NCBI GenBank assembly: GCA_001871075.1
Contig: MNUP01000018.1
Span: forward strand, 1 to 14,994
Direction: 5' to 3'
Origin: Candidatus Desantisbacteria bacterium CG1_02_49_89
GTDB taxonomy: Bacteria > Desantisbacteria > UBA1551
DNA length: 14,994 bases
The notes beneath the pieces are model-generated. The model was not told the origin of the DNA and searched no databases. It saw only the letters and a program-made list of their open reading frames with translations. The translations under genes and the position numbers were made by a program. Positions 4,757 to 14,130 of this stretch are shown piece by piece. Position 1 is the stretch's first letter, and every line of letters begins with the position of its first letter.

Positions 4757-4796
4757 CGTTGACACGTTGATACGTTGACACTCTGACACGCTGTTA
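4757..4796. repeat. Octamer array (five units) overlapping a stop codon
   Basis: The units are CGTTGACA, CGTTGATA, CGTTGACA, CTCTGACA and CGCTGTTA in unbroken 8-bp steps. The last three bases are the TAA stop of the 1816-aa gene on the minus strand. Confidence 0.85.
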
Positions 4797-7700
4797 CTCG
4801 ACCCTATAATACCACGCATCCGGGTACGTGCCGGCAAAACTGATCTCTCCGGCGTTATCCTTGAACTCAACCTTACCGAGTTCTTTTTTATCTTTGTCAA
4901 GCACTGTGACTTTCGTGACCTTCGCGGAATCCCCGAGTATCTTCTTAACCCTTAAGCATAGGTTGAATTTCTGGCCGTGCGGTATGGGAAGGACTGTCAG
5001 GGCTGCCTTTTCCTTATTTATACGCAGTGTCGCGTCTGTGGCAAGCGTCCCGAAATCCACAACCGTGCCGGGCAGGTTCTTTGAAGCGAAAACCCCCTTG
5101 GATTCCTTCGCGACTGTCGCTTTCAGGTTTGTTATCTGCCCGTCTTTCTGGTCCGCGATTATTTTCCCTATGATATACCTGTTCTCTCCGTCGTTGGCGC
5201 CTTTCATAACAGCTCGCCTGCCTGTTGTCGGGTCCCACAGCCCCACTCTTATGTCATAGGAATCCAGGTCAAACTCATCAGGGACTACGACCGTGTAAGG
5301 GCCGTCCTCGACTGTCTGCCCTTTTACCCACTTGCTTGATCTGCTTGGCAGCTGGTGGTCGTTCTGATAAAGTATCTTTCCTCCCTCGTCAGTAAAATGC
5401 ACGAAGCACGCGTAGTCTATGTCTCCCGGTTCTCCGGCAACCCACCTGTACTTGATCTTGAACTTTCTTTCACCCAGATAGGTAAGCTCTGAAAGCTGCG
5501 GCTCGATAATAAGGGTTGCTTCCGCGTGCATAGTCTCATACGTGCGCGGGTCAGCGAAGATCCACTCCGGAGTCTCCGAATAATCCCCCAGCTTCCCGTT
5601 GAAAAGCGCGGTGGCCGCAAGAGCTCCCGCGCCCTTTCCGAGGAACCCGTACGGCGGAAGCGTGTATCCCTCGACCTTCCATTCATTTTCGTTGTTTATC
5701 CACAGTTCCAGGCCGCTTGTGTATTTCACGTTAACCTTCCTGGACGCGTCTATGCGGGAAGCCGTATTTGAATTCACCCATTTGTCGCCCAGCATATACT
5801 GGATCTTTTCCGCGAGAAAAGGAGCATACCTTGCCATCATCGGCTGTGTCAGATAATACTCCCTCAGGGTCTGCGTCAGGTTCTTGTGGAAAGAAGTGTC
5901 TATGAAACCCGCGTGGCCGTATGCAAGCTCCTGGCCGCGGTATTTTTCGATCTCCAGCTCTGTCCAGCGCCTGTCAACCTGGCCCTGGAGCTCGTACCAT
6001 CTTGAATAATACCCCATCCCGTGGTTGACCATAAGCGGGTGGACTTTCAACAGGTCAAAATCCACCAGCACCGGGCAGAACTGCCCGTTGGCTATCTGCG
6101 CCTCGCACCCGTCAACGCGTCCTGCCCAGAACGCGTGCTGGTTTCCCTCTCCGAATATCGGCCCGCCGTGTGTCTCCCTTTCGAAATTGTAGAGCCACGT
6201 GAGCTTGTCAAACACGTATTTAAAACTCGCCGCCCCCTCTTCTTTCGCGTCAAAATCCAGTTGCCATGGAGCGCCTGTGGGCTGGACATCCAGGTAAGCC
6301 GCCTTTGTCTGGTATGCTTTGTTGATCAGCGGGCTTTCCTGCCTCGCGTATTTCTCTATCCAGGTCGGCTTCATCCTGAAAGACTGGATCTTCGTGCCCG
6401 GCTGGTACCAGGCGTTGATCCTGTTCTTGTTCTGGTCAACAGCCACGGCTTCTTCCGTGTATTCGGAATAATCGGGATAATAATCAATGTAATTCTCGTG
6501 GAGAGAGAGCACGTAGCCGAGATTTTTCGCCGTGACGCCCAGTATCTTCATCCCCTCGTCCCCGCCCATGCGCGGGTCTGCCGGGTAATGGGACGGAAGT
6601 TTAACATCGTATCCCCACCTCTGCCACACGTGATAGATTATCACAAGGTTGTCAATGCCGTAGCCTTTCAGGGTTTCCAGATATTTCGCGCTGTCCTTGT
6701 ACTGGTCGCCTGTCCACCAGTCCAGCATGACCCTGGAGCCCAGCACATCCATGTACGGGGTCCTGGGATTCGGCATGTTCGGGAGCACTTCAAGCAGGTC
6801 GTCGGACACCGCGATGTACAAGCTCTCTTTCAGCGGGTTCCTTGTCCTGTCTGTCTTCTGTGAATAGATGGCTCCGGGACCAGCGTAAGGATCGAACCAG
6901 GAACATCCTGTCTTTGTCCAGTCATAATAACCTGAAACAAAATAGTTGTTCGTGTAATAAACCGGTATCCAGTTCATGTAGGGGACCATGACCTGCTTCG
7001 CCGGTATCCCTGCAAGCGGCCCTTTGAACGAATTAAAAAGCGCCTGCGAAGAAGAAACATCGATCAGCAGGCTCTTTCCCTGGACCGAAAAGGCATACGC
7101 AATTTTGATATTCTCATTTTCGCACGCGGCTTCGCAGTTATAAGTGAGTTTGTTGTTTTCAAGCTTTGCGTTTAGGATCTTCGGGCTGAGTTTCGCGGTC
7201 GAATAATTCTTGTTCCCTATAGATATCTGCGGGCCGGTGTAAGCCGGTTCGCTCTTGAACAGCGTCACCCCGTTGACAAGCACGGCTACGTTAAGCGTCA
7301 GCCCGGGAATGACCTCATACGAAATAGTGTTGTCCTCGCCCTTGTATTCAAAAACATATTTTCCGCTGTCCTGCCTTGCTGAATTCAAATATTTTACAGC
7401 GTCAACAGAAGGAATTATTGTAGGCACAGCGGGCGCTGCCAGGGCAAGCAGGCTTTTACGCTCCCTCATCCTTATGGCGAACGCCTTAGCATACGCGGTC
7501 CCGGTGAAAACCTGGTCCTGGTATTTTAAAGAGCTTTCCAGCGTGTATTCTCCCTCGGATTTCAAAGAAGCCATATCTTTCACGATATGCTTCTCCGCGG
7601 CGTCAACCTTTTCCGCCACTGCCTGCTTGTCTATAACATTGCCCGCCCTGTCTTTCAGGGTTATATCGCCTGACAGGTCTCCGCCCGGTTTGACAGTGTA

Positions 7701-10244
7701 AACGCCTATCATCGCTTTCGGCGTTTCGCCGGGTATGTAAAGGTCTTTATCCGGGCTTGCCCACGCGAACGCGTTGTCGCAGAACGTCAGCTTGCCGAAT
7801 GTCTGGGGGTTAAACCAGTAATCCGCGCTGTTCGGCGCCGGCTTCCACGCCATTTCGTGTATGCGTTTCCCCGGCTTATCCGTGTCGCCTATGATAAGCT
7901 GGAAACCGAGGCTCTGGCCTGCCTGCGGGGTTATGCCCATTGAAGCGAACGGTATCTTTACTTCCATTATCCAGCCGTTGTCAAACATCTTTGCCGCTGT
8001 TTCCACGAGCCTGTAATTATAGTCCTTGTGGTCAAACCCGTTGTAGGACTGCAGTTTTACCATGGGCTTAAGCCCATCGCCTTCCGGGATGATCGCGAAC
8101 AGGTAATCGTCCTTTCCAGGAGTAGGACCAGGAGTAGAGCCTTTAGGCTCATTACCTGGAGTAGGGCCTTTAGGCCCGTTATTAGAAATATATATCCTCG
8201 TGTAATCGCTCTGGAAAAAGTCCCTGCTCTGCTTATCCTGAAAATTAAGCGAATCGTCGCTTCGCACCTCGGCAAGATAAAGGTTGTCCTTGTCATACCC
8301 CAGGTAAAATGTGGAACCCAGGTCCATAACCCCTTTCCACTCCTCGTCCTCTATGGTAAGCTGTTTCTTTTCCCCTATGCACAGCGGCGCGCCTGTTATT
8401 TCCTGCGGCCAGTCGCTGATATCCCCGTCAATCTTCAGAGATTTGGGGATCTTGAACACAGGAGCGGTCCCAAGAGGGAAAATATTCGCCAAAGGCGGGA
8501 AAGGCGTGGCAGCCGCTCCCTGCATGCTTTTTAATTTCCTGAATTTTATGTCTTTTATCCTGCCAGGGGTCCCGGAAATTATCAGTTTTCCCAGCACTAT
8601 CTTGTCACTTCCGCTCGTGGCTCCTCCCAGTTCCGGGAACCTTCCCTTTTCATTGTACAGGCCCAGCTGGATGTAGTAAACACCCGCCCCGCACTTTTCA
8701 GGCACGCCCACGTTGAAAGGGCCGTCGATAAAAGTGCTTTTTTCCTTCCAGGAAGATACCGGTGTCGCGGGCGCGTGGTCTCCCTGGAAAGCTATGTCCT
8801 CCCGGTCGTTCTCGCCGTAATCAGCATTGGTATAATGTATGAAAACAGTATAGTCCTCCTCTATCTTTTCCTTTACAAGCCACTCGTAGGTAACGCTGAA
8901 CTGGCTTTTGCCCAGGTACTTGAAATCGCTGATCCTGGGATAGATAACGCCTTCCTTTATCTCATAATCCGGCTCTTCGTCGTCCACAAATTCCTCCGCT
9001 TTTTCCCCTGTTTTTTTCACGGCTTCAACTTTCGGCAGTTCCTTGCCGGAAGCGATGATCCCCAGGTCCTTCTGGGTAATTTTGCCGGGGAACACCCTTA
9101 TGTCGTCAACCGCTATCGCTCCCTGGAAACGGACCCCTATAACAAGGAAATAGTCGTCAAAATCGTCCAGGGTGAACGTTGAAAGCATTGTGCCTGTCTT
9201 GCCTGCAGGGTCCTTGATGTCGATCCAGCCCTTGTCCGACGGCCCGGGACCCGGAGTCGCGGTGCGCGCAAGGAAATAAAAAGTGCAGTCGCCTTTTTTT
9301 TCTGTCACTTTATAGTTGAAAACAACCGTGTAGGTGCCTTTGGCCTTGAACTGAAGGTTCACCGGGTCAGAATGGAAAAACTCAAACCACTCCCCTTCCT
9401 GTTCAACGGTGGTGCAGAAAAGGGATGATTTGCCAGCGATAACGTTTTTCGGGTCATTCGAGATCTCAGCGCCGAACGCAATTATATATTCCTCGGGTTC
9501 ACCTGGTTCAAACCCGTACACCGCGATTGCTTTTCCTTTTTCCTCTGCCGCCCCCGCCTTAACCTTAACCTTGTCCACCTCGTAGGTGGACATGGGTGCT
9601 GCTACCTGCCCGGGTTTTGCCATGTCAATAACGAATTCCCCGAACGACGGGCATCCGGCCGCGTCGCCCTGCCAGCCGGGATGTGCGAAATAGCCTTTTT
9701 TCTGTGATGTGCCGCATGACCTGGAAGTTGCCTCAAAAGTAGAGCCCGTCACAGCCGGATCATTCGGAGAAACGTCTTCCTCATCATTGATATAACCTGT
9801 GCGCGCTGGTTTTAGTTTCTGGAAATCGAATAGTATTTTCGCTGAAACAGGCATCACCCCGTCGAATTCTTTCGGCAGGTCGCCCTCAATAATGTAGATG
9901 TCACCCCAGCACGCCCAGTCAAAAACCGTGGTTGCACCGGGATCTGTGATGAATTTGAGCGCGATCTTTTTATCCCTGAACTTGCTCATGTCGATCCTGC
10001 ATGCCTTCCAGGCAATCTCTGTCCACTCATCCTCACCTACGAGACTGCCTTTCTTTCCCGGCTCGCCTATCTCAACCTTGAAAATGACCCCGTCCGCCGG
10101 TTCAGCCCCGTCCCCGATACCAACGGAATAAACAAGCCACAGCTTCTGCTGCTCCGCGGCAGAGCAGTGGCCAGTGTCCAGTGGCCAGTGTCCAGTTAAA
10201 ACAGATACTAAAAGAATAAACCATATTAGGTTGAATTTTTTCAT
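4794..10244 (-). CDS. Large secreted multimodular carbohydrate-active protein
   Basis: This 1816-aa protein has a signal peptide (hydrophobic 4-17, cleavage near CSAA 27-30). Residues 33-210 are a jelly-roll-like module (GIGDGAEPADGVIF, then DPGATTVFDWACWG). 235-390 is a second possible sugar-binding beta domain, ending AIAVDDIRVFPG. 430-560 is a beta-sandwich module repeated at 1575-1700 (FVHF, QNDH, W, DGPY, RVGLW). 600-822 fits a CBM9/DOMON-like domain (LKIDGDISDWP, GWIMEVKIPF). About 1160-1570 resembles a TIM-barrel glycosidase region, perhaps DUF5696 or GH101-like, with candidate catalytic Asp1319 (YLDV) and Glu1366 (FGEGNQH). I infer extracellular glycan binding and possibly cleavage. 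AAGGAG five bases before the ATG supports the start. The residues 690-712 loop and part of the signal peptide are encoded by repeats. The first modules are closely related to the gene upstream. Confidence 0.85.
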   Translation of the reverse strand: MKKFNLIWFILLVSVLTGHWPLDTGHCSAAEQQKLWLVYSVGIGDGAEPADGVIFKVEIGEPGKKGSLVGEDEWTEIAWKACRIDMSKFRDKKIALKFITDPGATTVFDWACWGDIYIIEGDLPKEFDGVMPVSAKILFDFQKLKPARTGYINDEEDVSPNDPAVTGSTFEATSRSCGTSQKKGYFAHPGWQGDAAGCPSFGEFVIDMAKPGQVAAPMSTYEVDKVKVKAGAAEEKGKAIAVYGFEPGEPEEYIIAFGAEISNDPKNVIAGKSSLFCTTVEQEGEWFEFFHSDPVNLQFKAKGTYTVVFNYKVTEKKGDCTFYFLARTATPGPGPSDKGWIDIKDPAGKTGTMLSTFTLDDFDDYFLVIGVRFQGAIAVDDIRVFPGKITQKDLGIIASGKELPKVEAVKKTGEKAEEFVDDEEPDYEIKEGVIYPRISDFKYLGKSQFSVTYEWLVKEKIEEDYTVFIHYTNADYGENDREDIAFQGDHAPATPVSSWKEKSTFIDGPFNVGVPEKCGAGVYYIQLGLYNEKGRFPELGGATSGSDKIVLGKLIISGTPGRIKDIKFRKLKSMQGAAATPFPPLANIFPLGTAPVFKIPKSLKIDGDISDWPQEITGAPLCIGEKKQLTIEDEEWKGVMDLGSTFYLGYDKDNLYLAEVRSDDSLNFQDKQSRDFFQSDYTRIYISNNGPKGPTPGNEPKGSTPGPTPGKDDYLFAIIPEGDGLKPMVKLQSYNGFDHKDYNYRLVETAAKMFDNGWIMEVKIPFASMGITPQAGQSLGFQLIIGDTDKPGKRIHEMAWKPAPNSADYWFNPQTFGKLTFCDNAFAWASPDKDLYIPGETPKAMIGVYTVKPGGDLSGDITLKDRAGNVIDKQAVAEKVDAAEKHIVKDMASLKSEGEYTLESSLKYQDQVFTGTAYAKAFAIRMRERKSLLALAAPAVPTIIPSVDAVKYLNSARQDSGKYVFEYKGEDNTISYEVIPGLTLNVAVLVNGVTLFKSEPAYTGPQISIGNKNYSTAKLSPKILNAKLENNKLTYNCEAACENENIKIAYAFSVQGKSLLIDVSSSQALFNSFKGPLAGIPAKQVMVPYMNWIPVYYTNNYFVSGYYDWTKTGCSWFDPYAGPGAIYSQKTDRTRNPLKESLYIAVSDDLLEVLPNMPNPRTPYMDVLGSRVMLDWWTGDQYKDSAKYLETLKGYGIDNLVIIYHVWQRWGYDVKLPSHYPADPRMGGDEGMKILGVTAKNLGYVLSLHENYIDYYPDYSEYTEEAVAVDQNKNRINAWYQPGTKIQSFRMKPTWIEKYARQESPLINKAYQTKAAYLDVQPTGAPWQLDFDAKEEGAASFKYVFDKLTWLYNFERETHGGPIFGEGNQHAFWAGRVDGCEAQIANGQFCPVLVDFDLLKVHPLMVNHGMGYYSRWYELQGQVDRRWTELEIEKYRGQELAYGHAGFIDTSFHKNLTQTLREYYLTQPMMARYAPFLAEKIQYMLGDKWVNSNTASRIDASRKVNVKYTSGLELWINNENEWKVEGYTLPPYGFLGKGAGALAATALFNGKLGDYSETPEWIFADPRTYETMHAEATLIIEPQLSELTYLGERKFKIKYRWVAGEPGDIDYACFVHFTDEGGKILYQNDHQLPSRSSKWVKGQTVEDGPYTVVVPDEFDLDSYDIRVGLWDPTTGRRAVMKGANDGENRYIIGKIIADQKDGQITNLKATVAKESKGVFASKNLPGTVVDFGTLATDATLRINKEKAALTVLPIPHGQKFNLCLRVKKILGDSAKVTKVTVLDKDKKELGKVEFKDNAGEISFAGTYPDAWYYRVE
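8116..8177 (+). repeat. GTAG palindromes inside the coding region
   Basis: Within the CBM9-like domain, the plus strand has GTAG followed by GAGCC-TTTA-GGCTC (8134-8150, sharing its G) and GTAG followed by GGGCC-TTTA-GGCCC (8161-8177). A 12-bp direct repeat, CCAGGAGTAGGA, starts at 8116. They encode the Pro/Gly-rich residues 690-712 (NGPKGPTPGNEPKG and on). Orientation is opposite to that of the clear intergenic copies, where GTAG is on the minus strand. The reading frame is kept. Confidence 0.7.
10165..10197. repeat. Heptamer array in the signal-peptide region of the large gene
   Basis: CAGTGGC and CAGTGTC alternate in four 7-bp units from 10165 to 10192, then a partial CAGTT. On the gene strand this encodes residues TGHWPLDTGHC between the hydrophobic core and the cleavage site. 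Confidence 0.85.
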
Positions 10245-10311
10245 TACATCTCCTTTTTTAAAAAAATGATTACAGCGATTTTTTACTGACGATTGCAGCG
10301 ATAAAAATTTA

Positions 10312-10375
10312 ACAGGGATTTAGCGGGATTCAAACTACAATACTTTTTGCTTTTTAAATCTCATTAAATCCCTGT
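10312..10375. repeat. Imperfect inverted repeat with ACAGGGATTTA arms
   Basis: ACAGGGATTTA (10312-10322) and TAAATCCCTGT (10365-10375) pair perfectly over 11 bp. With a few mismatches the arms extend to 19 bases each, leaving a spacer of about 26 bases. The left arm also contains a near-direct repeat, GGGATTTA/GGGATTCA. Confidence 0.6.
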
Positions 10376-10400
10376 AAAAAGCCTTTTTCGTGATTTCCTC

Positions 10401-10532
10401 GCCCATCCTTTCAGTTGGGCGAAGTCTCGCCCGCTGAAAGACGGACGGAGTGCTTTCGTCCGCAGCCCGCCACGATTATTGGCGGGCGCAGGCCCCTGCG
10501 TTATAGTTCCAGCTTCATCGGAACTGCAGGGG
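10401..10532. repeat. Cluster of four or five hairpins after the 384-aa gene
   Basis: Visible stems are CTTTCAG/CTGAAAG outside GGGCGA/TCGCCC (10408-10440); GGACG/CGTCC near 10443-10462; GCCCGCCA/TGGCGGGC (10465-10487); CGCAGG/CCTGCG (10487-10500); and CCCCTGC plus AGTTCC arms on the minus strand (about 10494-10532) with one bulge. The GCCCGCCA hairpin resembles the core of the GGGTCTTCGA element. No T-tract follows any of them. Confidence 0.6.
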
Positions 10533-10540
10533 GAAATCTT

Positions 10541-11695
10541 TTACTTTTGATTTTTCATTTTTTCGAATTTAATATCCGTGATCTTGCCCGGCTCTCCGCT
10601 CACGATGAGCTTGCCCAGGTAGAACCTGCCGCCCCCGTCGCTCAATCCCGCTATATCCGTGCTTCGCCCGTTCTCGTTGAAAAGCCCCATTGCTATGTAA
10701 TAGATCGCGGGCCCGTTCTGTTCAGGAACTGTCAGGGAATAGGGGCCGTCTTTTATGGGCGTGTTTTCCTTCCACTGGGATGTTGGCTTCGAAAAACCAT
10801 GGTCTCCCTGGAACGCTATATCCTCGCGATCTTTTTCCCCGAATTCAGGGCTGGTAAAATGCACGAATATGTTGTAATTCTGCTCGATGACCTCTGAAAC
10901 CATCCACTCGTAGGTGATCTTGAATTTCACGCCGCCTGTGTAACTAAAATCCTTGACCCTCAAGGATATTATGCCTTCTTTTTCCTCGTAATTCGGCTCT
11001 TCGCCTTCTATCGGCCCACCCCCCTCATCTATTTTCGTTTTTTTAGATTTTTCTTCGGGGGGCGAGGTTGCTATCGCAAGATTTGCCAGGTCTATCACGA
11101 ATTCACCGAATGTCGGGCATCCTGCCGCGTCTCCCTGCCAGCCGGGATGGGCGAAATATACCGGTTTCTCGACTCCGCCGCACGCGCGTTTTGTCGCTTC
11201 AAAAGTTGAGCCTGTGTTTTTGGTGTCGATCGGTGTAATATCCTCGTCTTCCTTGATATAGCCCGTGCGCGCAGGCTTTATCTTCATGAAGTCAACAAGC
11301 ACGGACACACCTGCGGGAAGCGCTTCTCCGTTATAATTCTTCGGCAATTCTCCCTTTATTATCCTTATCTCTCCCCAGCTCGCCCAGTCGCAGTTAGTCG
11401 TGGCTCCGGGATCGGTTATGAACTTAATTGCTATCTTTTTATCCCTGAACTTACTTATCTCAACTTTGCAGAACTTCCAGCTTGATTCAGCCCATTCATC
11501 CTCAGCAACAGAGCTTCCTTTCTTGCCCGGCTCGCCTATCTCGACCTTAAAGGTAACCCCGTCCGTTTCCTGCGTGCCGTCGCTTATTCCAACATAATAG
11601 ATGAGCCATAGCTGGTCTTTCTGCTCAGCAGAGAAACAATAACCAAACCACAGAGCGCACAGAGGAATACACAATAATATTGCTATCCTTTTCAT
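10541..11695 (-). CDS. Secreted jelly-roll/beta-sandwich protein, paralogue of the large protein
   Basis: The 384-aa protein has a signal peptide (hydrophobic 4-20, cleavage near FSA 21-23). Residues 28-205 align without gaps worth noting to residues 33-210 of the 1816-aa protein (GISDGTQETDGVTF, DPGATTNCDWASWG, YFAHPGWQGDAAGCP), about two thirds identical by eye. Residues 240-378 align to residues 430-570 of it (FVHF, DREDIAFQGDH, DGPY, MGLFN, LGKLIVSG). The 235-415 segment of the large protein is missing here, replaced by a short linker rich in E, K and G. It probably binds carbohydrate outside the cell; no catalytic part is visible. AAAGGAG eight bases before the ATG supports the start. 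The gene is 296 bp upstream of its paralogue. Part of the signal peptide is encoded by a 9-bp repeat. Confidence 0.85.
   Translation of the reverse strand: MKRIAILLCIPLCALWFGYCFSAEQKDQLWLIYYVGISDGTQETDGVTFKVEIGEPGKKGSSVAEDEWAESSWKFCKVEISKFRDKKIAIKFITDPGATTNCDWASWGEIRIIKGELPKNYNGEALPAGVSVLVDFMKIKPARTGYIKEDEDITPIDTKNTGSTFEATKRACGGVEKPVYFAHPGWQGDAAGCPTFGEFVIDLANLAIATSPPEEKSKKTKIDEGGGPIEGEEPNYEEKEGIISLRVKDFSYTGGVKFKITYEWMVSEVIEQNYNIFVHFTSPEFGEKDREDIAFQGDHGFSKPTSQWKENTPIKDGPYSLTVPEQNGPAIYYIAMGLFNENGRSTDIAGLSDGGGRFYLGKLIVSGEPGKITDIKFEKMKNQK
11649..11666. repeat. Nonamer pair in the signal-peptide region
   Basis: CACAGAGCG (11649-11657) and CACAGAGGA (11658-11666) encode part of residues 10-16, just inside the hydrophobic segment. 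The same CACAGAG word is found outside genes at 11742-11749 and 13701-13718. Confidence 0.6.
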
Positions 11696-11762
11696 AAAAA
11701 AAACTCCTTTCGACTTAAAGTAAGTTTTTTGCCGCTGAAACCACAGAGAAATTCTATTTTGC

Positions 11763-11789
11763 CACTGAAGGCACTGAGTTCACTGAGTT
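11763..11789. repeat. Nonamer array CACTGAGTT
   Basis: Three 9-bp units, CACTGAAGG, CACTGAGTT and CACTGAGTT, with no spacers. A looser CGAAAC array follows. Confidence 0.8.
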
Positions 11790-11835
11790 TTTAGACTGCG
11801 AAACTTTAAACTCGAAACCTCGAAACAAATATATT

Positions 11836-11863
11836 ACTCATGACTCATGACAAGTGACTAATG
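11836..11863. repeat. Heptamer array ACTCATG
   Basis: Four 7-bp units: ACTCATG, ACTCATG, ACAAGTG and ACTAATG, then ACTG. Confidence 0.8.
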
Positions 11864-11906
11864 ACTGCCCTTTAACCACGAATTCTCACTGATTTCCACG
11901 GATTTA

Positions 11907-11934
11907 ACTTTCAACCTTCAACTTTCAACTTTTA
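11907..11934. repeat. Heptamer array ACTTTCA
   Basis: Four 7-bp units: ACTTTCA, ACCTTCA, ACTTTCA and ACTTTTA, then ACTA. Confidence 0.8.
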
Positions 11935-11987
11935 ACTACATTTAATAACCACGGGTAAACACTGTTAATTTACGCTGCTAAGAAAAA

Positions 11988-12031
11988 ACAGGCTCCCACC
12001 ATAATGATTGGCGGGTCTTCGAGAAGCCTGT
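11988..12031. repeat. GGGTCTTCGA element, copy B (intact)
   Basis: Arms ACAGGCT (11988-11994) and AGCCTGT (12025-12031) enclose CCCACCATAATGATTGGCGG and then GTCTTCGAGA. This intact copy shows where the copy at 13826 has been opened. Confidence 0.75.
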
Positions 12032-12037
12032 GGCTTC

Positions 12038-12061
12038 GGGCGTCATAAATGCCGCCCCTAC
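12038..12061 (-). repeat. GTAG palindrome with one arm mismatch
   Basis: Arms GGGCGTCAT (12038-12046) and ATGCCGCCC (12049-12057) match at eight of nine positions, and CTAC follows at 12058-12061. The layout is that of 3325-3348. Confidence 0.7.
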
Positions 12062-12071
12062 AATTATTTCA

Positions 12072-12106
12072 CGTACGACGCGCGACGTTCGACGTACGAC
12101 GTTATT
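12072..12106. repeat. Heptamer array CGTACGA overlapping a stop codon
   Basis: Units CGTACGA, CGCGCGA, CGTTCGA, CGTACGA and CGTTATT run in 7-bp steps. The last unit contains the TAA stop (12102-12104) of the 518-aa gene on the minus strand. Confidence 0.8.
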
Positions 12107-13658
12107 TCGCCAGGACTACCGTCCCTGTTTTAACAACCGGGACCGCGTAGCCTATCCTTACCTGATAAATGTATACACCGACAGGGGCAATTCTACCATA
12201 GCTGTCTTTGCCATCCCAGCCGATCTGCGCGAAACCGCTGCATTCCACATTTTCAGCGATCATTTTTATGAGAGACCCTTTCATATTATAGATCTTCGCT
12301 GTCACAGGAGCTGAAGGCTCAACACTCAGCATAAGTTTTGTTTCATCGCATTTCCCATCCCCGTTAGGCGAAAATGGATCGGGAAAAAACACTACTTTAT
12401 CTTTTACAACAAGCGCGCTGTTGTCTATGAAAAGAACGCTGAAATTACAGCAGAACAACTCCTCGTTCTGCAAGGTCCTGCCGCCCTCAAGCTTCAGGGT
12501 CGCGAAACCCTCTCCCAGGAAACCGCAGATCTGGGTTTCACCTGTTGTAAATACAGAACCTGCCCAGGTCCCGGTAGAACCGGGTATTGATAGCGTGCCG
12601 CCTGAACCCGAAACTATGGTCACTGTCGGGCTGTAACCGGTGTCAACCCCTATGTTAAACGCGTATTCAAAACTTATATTCTCCCCTGCCTTTACCTGGA
12701 AAGACGGCCTTGAGATCAGCGACTTTACAGGGGAACCTATATTCACCTCTTTCAGAAGGGGCGAAATAGAAGGACTGCTCGAATAGAGTATTGCCCTGTA
12801 CTGGAAATACCAGCCAGGAGGGTCCAGGACCTCGTCGCCGGAGGTATAATAGGTATCAGACCATTCTTCAGCAAGCACGTCAGCAGGAGTTGTCCCTGCC
12901 CTTGTATTGAAAACCACTGAGCATCCGGCAACAGTGTCCGCAACCCAGGAGATCCTGCCGAAAGTGGTCTTGCCGCCGCAGTCATACACACTCGAAAGAT
13001 ATATGCCTGCGCCCGTGAAAACACCTTTCATGAAAAATATGCCGTCCATCCATCCGTCACCCGAAGGATCGCTTGCGCCGTTCCACCAGGCTTGGTCAAT
13101 GCTTACTTTCGCGCAGTTTGAAGGAAGCTCATAGGTTGCTCCGGAACCGATGCCACCAACTGTGATAAAATAATAGACCCACCCGCTGCTTAAAGAAAAA
13201 TCCTGCAAATCTTTGTGCATAAACTCGGTGCCGCCGGAATCATACAGTATCAGGCGGAAGTAATAATCGCCTTTGGTTATGTCGCACTTAAGCCAGGCGC
13301 CAAGCGAATAAACCACTGAAGAGTTATTTTCTATCTCTATTATCGAACACCTTGCTCCCTGCGGATTGCCGCTTCCGCTGGCTGAGACCTTTGAGCTGAA
13401 ACTGCCGCTGTATCCCGCTGACTGGACAGAGCTGTTCTGGTTCCAGCCCTTGAACCCGTCCTCGAAATCACCGTTCTGGACAAGGTTGGGCGAGAGCGTG
13501 ATGCCGCCGGTTGTAAGGATCGCCGCGTTGAACGAACCCTGCCCGAATTCATCGTAGGTTTCGCGCAAAGGCAGGCCCTCGGCGAACGCCGTGTAACGTG
13601 TAACGTGTAACGTGAAAAACAGAAGCCCAAGAAGGAAATACTGACGTAATCTTTTCAT
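12102..13658 (-). CDS. Secreted protein with carbohydrate-binding-like and FlgD-Ig-like domains
   Basis: The 518-aa protein has a signal peptide (hydrophobic 8-16, cleavage near AFA 24-26). NLVQNGDFEDGFKGW (58-72) starts a CBM4/9-like beta sandwich running to about 215 (ending DGIFFMKG). Residues 220-410 form further beta-rich modules I cannot name. Residues 415-518 fit the FlgD Ig-like or gliding-motility-type C-terminal domain: DPFSPNGDGKCDE (427-439), AKIYNMKGSLIK, WDGKDSYGRIAPVGVYIYQV. In related proteins such C-termini help anchor or export the product; which applies here is not visible. The ATG has no good Shine-Dalgarno; the bases ahead of it are a CACGAAA array. Both gene ends touch repeat arrays. 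It probably binds glycans at the cell surface. Confidence 0.83.
   Translation of the reverse strand: MKRLRQYFLLGLLFFTLHVTRYTAFAEGLPLRETYDEFGQGSFNAAILTTGGITLSPNLVQNGDFEDGFKGWNQNSSVQSAGYSGSFSSKVSASGSGNPQGARCSIIEIENNSSVVYSLGAWLKCDITKGDYYFRLILYDSGGTEFMHKDLQDFSLSSGWVYYFITVGGIGSGATYELPSNCAKVSIDQAWWNGASDPSGDGWMDGIFFMKGVFTGAGIYLSSVYDCGGKTTFGRISWVADTVAGCSVVFNTRAGTTPADVLAEEWSDTYYTSGDEVLDPPGWYFQYRAILYSSSPSISPLLKEVNIGSPVKSLISRPSFQVKAGENISFEYAFNIGVDTGYSPTVTIVSGSGGTLSIPGSTGTWAGSVFTTGETQICGFLGEGFATLKLEGGRTLQNEELFCCNFSVLFIDNSALVVKDKVVFFPDPFSPNGDGKCDETKLMLSVEPSAPVTAKIYNMKGSLIKMIAENVECSGFAQIGWDGKDSYGRIAPVGVYIYQVRIGYAVPVVKTGTVVLAK
13591..13614. repeat. Heptamer array GTGTAAC in a signal-peptide region
   Basis: Three exact 7-bp units GTGTAAC (13591-13611) followed by GTG. 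On the gene strand they encode TLHVTRYT between the hydrophobic core and the cleavage site of the 518-aa protein. Confidence 0.85.
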
Positions 13659-13671
13659 TTCAATTTTTTAC

Positions 13672-13718
13672 CACGAAAGCACGAAGTCACGAAATTTAAC
13701 CACAGAGAACGCAGAGAA
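13672..13718. repeat. CACGAAA octamer array and CACAGAGAA nonamer pair
   Basis: CACGAAAG, CACGAAGT and CACGAAAT (13672-13695) run in 8-bp steps. CACAGAGAA and CGCAGAGAA (13701-13718) are two 9-bp units. The first array lies immediately upstream of the 518-aa gene start. Confidence 0.75.
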
Positions 13719-13733
13719 ATATCTTGGTTTTCA

Positions 13734-13761
13734 ACTTGATACTTGACACTTGACTCTTGAT
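13734..13761. repeat. Heptamer array ACTTGAC
   Basis: Units ACTTGAT, ACTTGAC, ACTTGAC and TCTTGAT in exact 7-bp steps, then ACTGAAA. Confidence 0.8.
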
Positions 13762-13798
13762 ACTGAAATCAACCACGGATTTATTAGGAACCAGAGGA

Positions 13799-13831
13799 GT
13801 AGCCCCTTTAGGGTCGTAAAACAACGGGGCT
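13799..13831 (+). repeat. GTAG element with AGCCCC/GGGGCT arms
   Basis: GTAG (13799-13802) leads into CCCCTTTAGGG, a short palindrome. AGCCCC (13801-13806) also pairs with GGGGCT (13826-13831) over a longer loop. The right arm is shared with the start of the split GGGTCTTCGA element. Confidence 0.5.
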
Positions 13832-13943
13832 CCCACCTTAATGATTGGCAGCTTGCCCGCCGTAGCATCCGCAACCTTTCCGCGAATAGCGGAGAGATAA
13901 GGTTGACGGAGTATCTGCGCAGGCGCGGGTCTTCGAGAAGCCC
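13826..13943. repeat. GGGTCTTCGA element, copy C, opened by a 77-bp insert
   Basis: The left part runs GGGGCTCCCACC to ATTGGC (13826-13849); the right part runs GGGTCTTCGAGAAGCCC (13927-13943). In the intact copy these parts are contiguous. The insert (13850-13926) contains a long hairpin: TCCG-CAACCTT pairs with AAGGTTG-A-CGGA, and TCCGC/GCGGA pair within it. Confidence 0.7.
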
Positions 13944-13949
13944 TGAGTT

Positions 13950-13973
13950 ACTCCGAAGGAGTCCCTTTGGGAC
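13950..13973. repeat. Two overlapping small palindromes
   Basis: ACTCC-GAA-GGAGT (13950-13962) and GTCCC-TTT-GGGAC (13961-13973) share two bases. Confidence 0.6.
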
Positions 13974-13984
13974 AAATTTCTTTA

Positions 13985-14007
13985 CGCAACCTAAAGGTTG
14001 CGGCTAC
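13985..14007 (-). repeat. GTAG palindrome, CGCAACCT arms
   Basis: CGCAACCT (13985-13992) pairs with AGGTTGCG (13995-14002) around AA; G and CTAC follow. The layout is that of 4724-4746, with compensating changes in both arms. Confidence 0.85.
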
Positions 14008-14011
14008 CTTT

Positions 14012-14033
14012 GGGCGGGCAAGCTCACCCCTAC
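14012..14033 (-). repeat. GTAG palindrome, decayed copy
   Basis: Same position pattern as 2227-2248, but the right arm reads GCTCACCC instead of GCCCGCCC, so two pairs are weakened or lost. Confidence 0.75.
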
Positions 14034-14069
14034 GCGTACGCAAAACTGAAGCCTTGCCCTACGAAAAAT

Positions 14070-14092
14070 GTGCGCCTAAGGCGCACCGCTAC
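14070..14092 (-). repeat. GTAG palindrome, GTGCGCC arms
   Basis: GTGCGCC (14070-14076) pairs with GGCGCAC (14080-14086) around TAA; CG and CTAC follow. The layout matches 3390-3411. Confidence 0.85.
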
Positions 14093-14095
14093 TTT

Positions 14096-14130
14096 GTAAA
14101 CTTGTAAACTCTGTAAACTATGTAAACTAT
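14096..14130. repeat. GTAAACT array overlapping a stop codon
   Basis: GTAAACTT (8 bp), then GTAAACTCT, GTAAACTAT and GTAAACTAT (9 bp each). The last unit contains the TAG stop (14127-14129) of the DUF11-type gene on the minus strand. Confidence 0.8.

Follow-up and report, generated by a model that had tools for sequence, protein, structure and literature searches.

Short tandem arrays of seven-base units are concentrated in the signal-peptide codons of the genome analysed here. There they are translated in frame, the peptide that they encode is under selection, their unit changes between paralogues, and identical arrays occur in paralogues that have otherwise diverged. The window, MNUP01000018.1 (14,994 nucleotides), is one whole contig of the draft genome (2.48 Mb, 150 contigs) that, as sequence only, forms our evidence base. 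Scans of this genome covered 1.91 Mb, and the TRF census of arrays covered its first 1.36 Mb. Genes were called with a home-made hexamer model and signal-peptide-like N-termini were flagged by a simple rule; cut sites came from a crude predictor, which was confident for 18 array signal peptides. An array was counted where a mismatch-tolerant period score of at least 13 was reached in codons 5–35.

Repeats in the window and across the genome

Read in the minus-strand coding sense, three signal-peptide genes of the window each carry a microrepeat at the place reported in a preliminary description of this DNA. Gene 1 (4794..10244, minus strand; ORF and Pfam evidence) encodes an exported protein of 1,816 aa with CBM9-like and DUF5696 stretches. 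Its signal peptide spans residues 1–29 (10158–10244, minus strand) and the N-terminus reads MKKFNLIWFILLVSVL[TGHWPLDTGHC]SAA, where brackets enclose the peptide encoded by the array. This array (10165..10196, minus strand; codons 17–27; TRF 64 at period 14 and 50 at period 7) consists in the coding sense of four and a half heptamers, ACTGGAC ACTGGCC ACTGGAC ACTGGCC ACTG. Gene 2 (10541..11695, minus strand; exported, 384 aa) is paralogous to the N-terminal part of gene 1; its signal peptide (about 11630–11695, minus strand) contains two copies of a 9-mer, CACAGAG plus two bases (11649..11666, minus strand), at codons 10–16, read as IPLCALW. Gene 3 (12102..13658, minus strand; exported, 518 aa) has sub-threshold matches to CBM_4_9 and CHU_C/FlgD_ig, and its signal peptide (13581–13658, minus strand) holds a perfect array, (TTACACG)3.6 in the coding sense (13590..13614, minus strand; TRF 50). 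Codons 15–23 of gene 3 are thereby read as FTLHVTRYT, three residues short of the AFA^E cut site; the TTACACG unit recurs elsewhere in the source genome. The division of the three genes into two families was also confirmed, with 73% downstream DNA identity between genes 1 and 2 and gene 3 standing apart.

A chance origin had been considered unlikely for all three repeats. This holds for genes 1 and 3, whose arrays were matched by 0 of 5,000 base or codon shuffles at periods 5–12, and does not hold for gene 2 taken alone, as 6–7% of shuffles reach its CACAGAG nonamer. CACAGAG-N(1–3)-CACAGAG is found in 22 copies in 1.91 Mb compared with 0 in Markov simulations, so the gene 2 repeat genuinely belongs to a dispersed family; 20 of these copies are intergenic and both coding ones fall within signal-peptide codons 8–30. 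An Rfam search of the region gave no match. The weak C-terminal CHU_C/FlgD_ig matches of gene 3 and the 28 matches to PorV-like paralogues in the source genome suggest that this organism may possess a type IX-like secretion system.

Across the first 1.36 Mb, TRF reported 346 period-7 arrays with 87 canonical units, most often in about four copies, and 382 period-7 spans were identified in 1.91 Mb. Within the window, an intergenic AACTTTC array (11906..11937, no strand assigned; TRF 50) belongs to a unit type also present in several signal peptides elsewhere; further intergenic arrays, included for comparison and likewise unstranded, are ACTAATG (11836..11866; TRF 34), ACGTACG (12071..12102; TRF 43) and ACTTGAC (13734..13764; TRF 41). 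Exact 21-mers from many signal-peptide arrays recur in intergenic DNA. The gaps between genes, both genome-wide and in the window (11700–12100 and 13660–14130), are crowded with dispersed repeats including heptamers, octamers, nonamers and the CACAGAG family.

The comparison with cytoplasmic genes and other codon positions, proposed as a check in the preliminary description, was strongly positive. Period-7 arrays lay in codons 5–35 of 31 of 396 signal-peptide-like genes and of 1 of 822 others (1.91 Mb; Fisher 7e-15), and codons 51–81 of the same 396 genes contained none. Codon shuffles of the genes gave 0 arrays reaching a score of 13, and among periods 4 to 24 nothing was comparable to 7 besides its multiples. 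Repeats arising as a by-product of leucine-rich cores were ruled out, because a period of 7 does not fit whole codons and no arrays appear after codon shuffling. The array genes mostly belong to few loose protein families; with families collapsed by single linkage of the mature proteins, the counts were 9/242 and 1/511 (2e-4). Arrays were present in 33 of 298 proteins with a hydrophobic N-terminus and no further TM segment, and in 0 of 59 multi-spanning membrane proteins with such an N-terminus. Their carriers include SurA-like, DegP-like, BatD-like and ApbE proteins. Array density was 1.06/kb in signal-peptide codons 8–30, 0.78/kb in intergenic DNA and 0.01–0.07/kb in gene bodies. For TTACACG-type arrays the corresponding values were 0.50/kb in signal peptides and 0.042/kb in intergenic DNA, a 12-fold excess (Poisson 9e-7, with paralogues collapsed by hand). 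This enrichment supports the earlier proposal that repeat DNA is recruited into signal peptides.

Position, reading frame and selection

The typical array signal peptide, MKKILLLLLVF[TLHVTRDTLHV]VYA^ES, is composed of a short core, the array, three residues and the cut. Signal-peptide arrays measure about 28–31 bp (4 copies) and represent the unit types TTACACG, TTCAACT, TTCAGCT, CACTGGC, CACTGTC, CTATGGT and TAACTTG. In most of the 18 confident cases the array ends at −4, with a three-residue gap to the predicted cut. Signal peptides averaged 26 aa where an array is present and 24 aa where there is none; the array thus takes the place of part of the h/c region rather than adding ten residues.

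The frame was tested in arrays that follow a signal-peptide-like start and lead into a long ORF. Of these, 35 of 36 were in frame (1/3 expected, p=5e-16), and the single out-of-frame array is a doubtful case. The arrays are also shaped at the level of codons. The CGT arginine codon of TTACACG-type arrays was altered in 10 of 17 copies; among copies read in either of the remaining phases, G7 changes numbered 6 of 41 (p=0.001). These counts include related genes, so that some related arrays count more than once. The same position was altered in 9 of 56 intergenic TTACACG-type arrays. Lysine and arginine make up 2.4% of translated arrays compared with 13.4% of virtually translated intergenic arrays. 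Selection acts on the array-encoded peptide. The frame test and the codon-phase pattern of arginine also ruled out that start codons had been over-extended into intergenic arrays.

Unit turnover between paralogues and in a relative

Among the PorV-like paralogues, comparison of L175_8644 with L184_6871 showed 93% identity in the 5' coding part and 86% downstream, but only 62% in the array, where the units differ. Conversely, L184_6871, L083_7859 and L087_3910 share an imperfect 30-bp array that is 100% identical, whereas their downstream identity is 64–74%. Gene 1 and L157_13077 match in their n-regions (36 of the 48 bases that precede the array) and in their cut sites, and carry a CACTGGC-type and a CTTACAC-type array, respectively, in the same codon register. 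These patterns are consistent with the unit being exchanged between genes while position and length hold, and the presence of one and the same array in diverged genes suggests a recent origin for many arrays. The preliminary description had spoken of inserted or expanding repeats; the arrays do not add ten residues, and it is the unit that turns over, while number and place are fixed.

An apparent Bat-type operon (L023:2266-11421), composed by sequence of MoxR-, DUF58-, BatA/B-, BatD- and BatC-like genes, includes three exported genes with related n/h regions, whose signal-peptide arrays are of two unit types.

Comparison within the phylum was with one relative, G001, seen at loci brought in by searches. 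In G001 the signal peptide of the SurA-like orthologue contains a period-7 array of 53 bp with a TGTCATC-like unit (0 of 20,000 shuffles), where the SurA-like protein of the source genome carries TTACACG. The trace of 7-base periodicity in a PorV-like orthologue is weak and is reached by 76 of 5,000 shuffles. No array is present in the signal peptide of the DegP-like protease orthologue (69% identity), nor in most G001 signal peptides, so the arrays are dispensable. A BatD orthologue was sought in G001 and none was found. We also observed that a G001 LptE-like lipoprotein (L222:1495-2041) starts within a heptamer array that encodes its n-region (MQLKAESSKFKV).

Origin of the arrays and comparison with known repeats

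The explanation that we consider probable, with some reserve, is that the arrays are exchangeable, frame-blind heptamer cassettes that serve as signal-peptide filler and are replaced by copying. The genome is scattered with arrays of ~30 bp, some four heptamers each and of scores of unit types, and in Sec signal peptides an array would be translated to fill the space from the short hydrophobic core to the cleavage box. As 7 and 3 are coprime, a stop-free heptamer array gives one seven-residue cycle that is the same in all three frames. Because this cycle is frame-independent, swapping arrays of equal length would keep the frame, the length and the uncharged, mildly apolar character of the segment. 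Arrays would be taken up and kept there, as the segment may demand little else of its sequence, and selection against arginine would then trim resident arrays. The unit would change through short gene-conversion-like copying between arrays, together with internal slippage or mutation, while place and length are held. Identity patterns within this one draft genome point to such copying, and we infer that the arrays are of benefit by making a signal peptide that works and not through a regulatory effect.

The arrays could instead arise or land anywhere, be purged from genes and be kept in loose signal peptides, with no recruitment or exchange. Their frequency between genes and rarity in gene bodies agree with this, as do the presence of signal-peptide units between genes and the array-less DegP-like orthologue of G001. 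However, neutral landing predicts at most about one sixth of the intergenic density, given frame and orientation, whereas density in signal peptides exceeds the intergenic value (1.06 against 0.78/kb), although frame, stop codons and charge all restrict which arrays can sit there, and for TTACACG-type arrays does so 12-fold. Signal peptides are not lengthened by ten residues and the unit is replaced between nearly identical flanks, which also speaks against simple landing. Passive tolerance alone fits the density data poorly, and we regard it as possible but rather unlikely. Arrays being lost more slowly under selection could account for part of the pattern, but many arrays may be young, as noted above. 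The exchanged segment might also be larger, with arrays acting as recombination seams at which the n-region and core are swapped between unrelated exported genes. The three genes of the Bat-type operon, with common n/h-region DNA and different array units, fit such shuffling, but homology ends at the array in few cases and many of the 5' matches come from dispersed repeats that lie ahead of the start codon, and we consider this reading improbable.

Two further readings would make the repeat functional as DNA, as mRNA or as a switch. The arrays may act in DNA or mRNA as binding sites for a regulator, a role proposed for TAACTGA repeats upstream of start codons (PMC4679880), and be translated incidentally. 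For 68 of the 255 co-directional intergenic heptamer arrays the next start codon is no more than 20 nt away, which recalls that system. Against this, unit sequence differs between paralogues, selection falls on the peptide, and in co-directional gaps the intergenic arrays of signal-peptide unit types mostly run opposite to the sense used in signal peptides (39 vs 14, p 8e-4). A shared mRNA motif is disfavoured because same-type intergenic arrays mostly oppose transcription, and we consider the regulatory reading very improbable. Transcripts of these antisense intergenic arrays could in principle pair with signal-peptide arrays. The unit is not a multiple of 3 and its place matches the leader repeats of Neisseria opa (PMC3960869), so gain or loss of 7 bp could shift the frame and switch the exported protein, as in phase-variable contingency loci. 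But the arrays are short and mostly imperfect, SurA-like, DegP-like, BatD-like and ApbE carriers are unlikely switch targets, and the frame counts (35 on, 1 doubtful off) led us to reject phase variation as the main role; of the readings considered here it appears the most remote.

Several known repeat systems resemble parts of this pattern. Xanthomonas and Nostoc contain heptameric tandem repeats (GGGAATC, GGGGA(T/C)T) described as intergenic (PMC4692102), and marine Beggiatoaceae contain intergenic TAACTGA repeats, the proposed regulator sites upstream of start codons (PMC4679880). As in those genomes, we found 7-base units in short, heterogeneous arrays, hundreds per genome and mostly intergenic, which vary extensively in length and sequence between relatives; the Xanthomonas arrays are likewise commonest at about four copies (PMC4692102). 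Those accounts describe one main unit type per genome and do not mention signal peptides (PMC4692102; PMC4679880), whereas here there are scores of types and the coding arrays are concentrated in signal peptides. Thus the arrays share with such STRR-like repeats their number and shortness genome-wide but are not essentially intergenic, their density in signal-peptide codons 8–30 being equal or higher. In Neisseria Opa, CTCTT coding repeats in the leader peptide act as a phase switch (PMC3960869). Our arrays likewise have a unit not divisible by 3 and are translated inside the leader as part of the signal peptide; Opa repeats, however, vary in number and switch frame, whereas here the number is near-fixed, loci out of frame amount to the single doubtful one (35/36 on), the unit sequence varies and many unrelated genes are involved. 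A Yersinia repeat unit forms part of one predicted signal peptide (PMC2759123), which similarly represents a dispersed short repeat recruited into coding sequence and signal peptide, but that is one isolated instance, of a MITE-like element of 168 bp, whereas the heptamer arrays here are 30 bp long and occur in dozens of genes. The preliminary description knew of no established account. This is correct for the genome-wide signal-peptide pattern and not for its parts, since heptamer arrays and single leader repeats (Neisseria Opa, PMC3960869; Yersinia, PMC2759123) were already known.

In the literature searched, which included few subscription journals, we found no report of systematic use of heptamer arrays in signal peptides. 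An exact TTACACG scan returned 30 foreign stretches, none recognisably a signal-peptide array, and 15 of the foreign genomes holding TTACACG arrays had few AACTTTC-type arrays; on these two counts we rejected a general rule across bacteria. In Patescibacteria (L112, L121, L130, L124, L133), TTACACG arrays lie in frame within ORFs resembling conserved enzymes; examples are a TIM-like ORF, with the array close to its N-terminus, and ORFs resembling Pth and PrmC that contain an array. The palindromic elements of Rickettsia reportedly also lie in frame in many genes of one genome, a likeness to the present arrays; they are longer, palindromic and not known to be concentrated in signal peptides. 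As with RU/RPE-type elements, one repeat is found here both between genes and in frame in unrelated genes, but it is not a mobile or palindromic element of conserved sequence, as period and length alone are conserved.

Signal peptides tolerate diverse sequence, and their raw material is rarely visible. Here a source of signal-peptide sequence can be seen, namely intergenic heptamer arrays that would enter a defined sub-segment, and the coprimality of 7 and 3 would make these arrays interchangeable without damage to the frame. A bolder and, in our view, unlikely extension is that a lineage-wide heptamer scaffold is kept by active array copying, so that export signals would be renewed together and independently of their cargo proteins. 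The arrays provide a natural experiment on the coding requirements of the segment that precedes the cut site, and a case in which repeat DNA would have been turned into protein sequence repeatedly within one genome.
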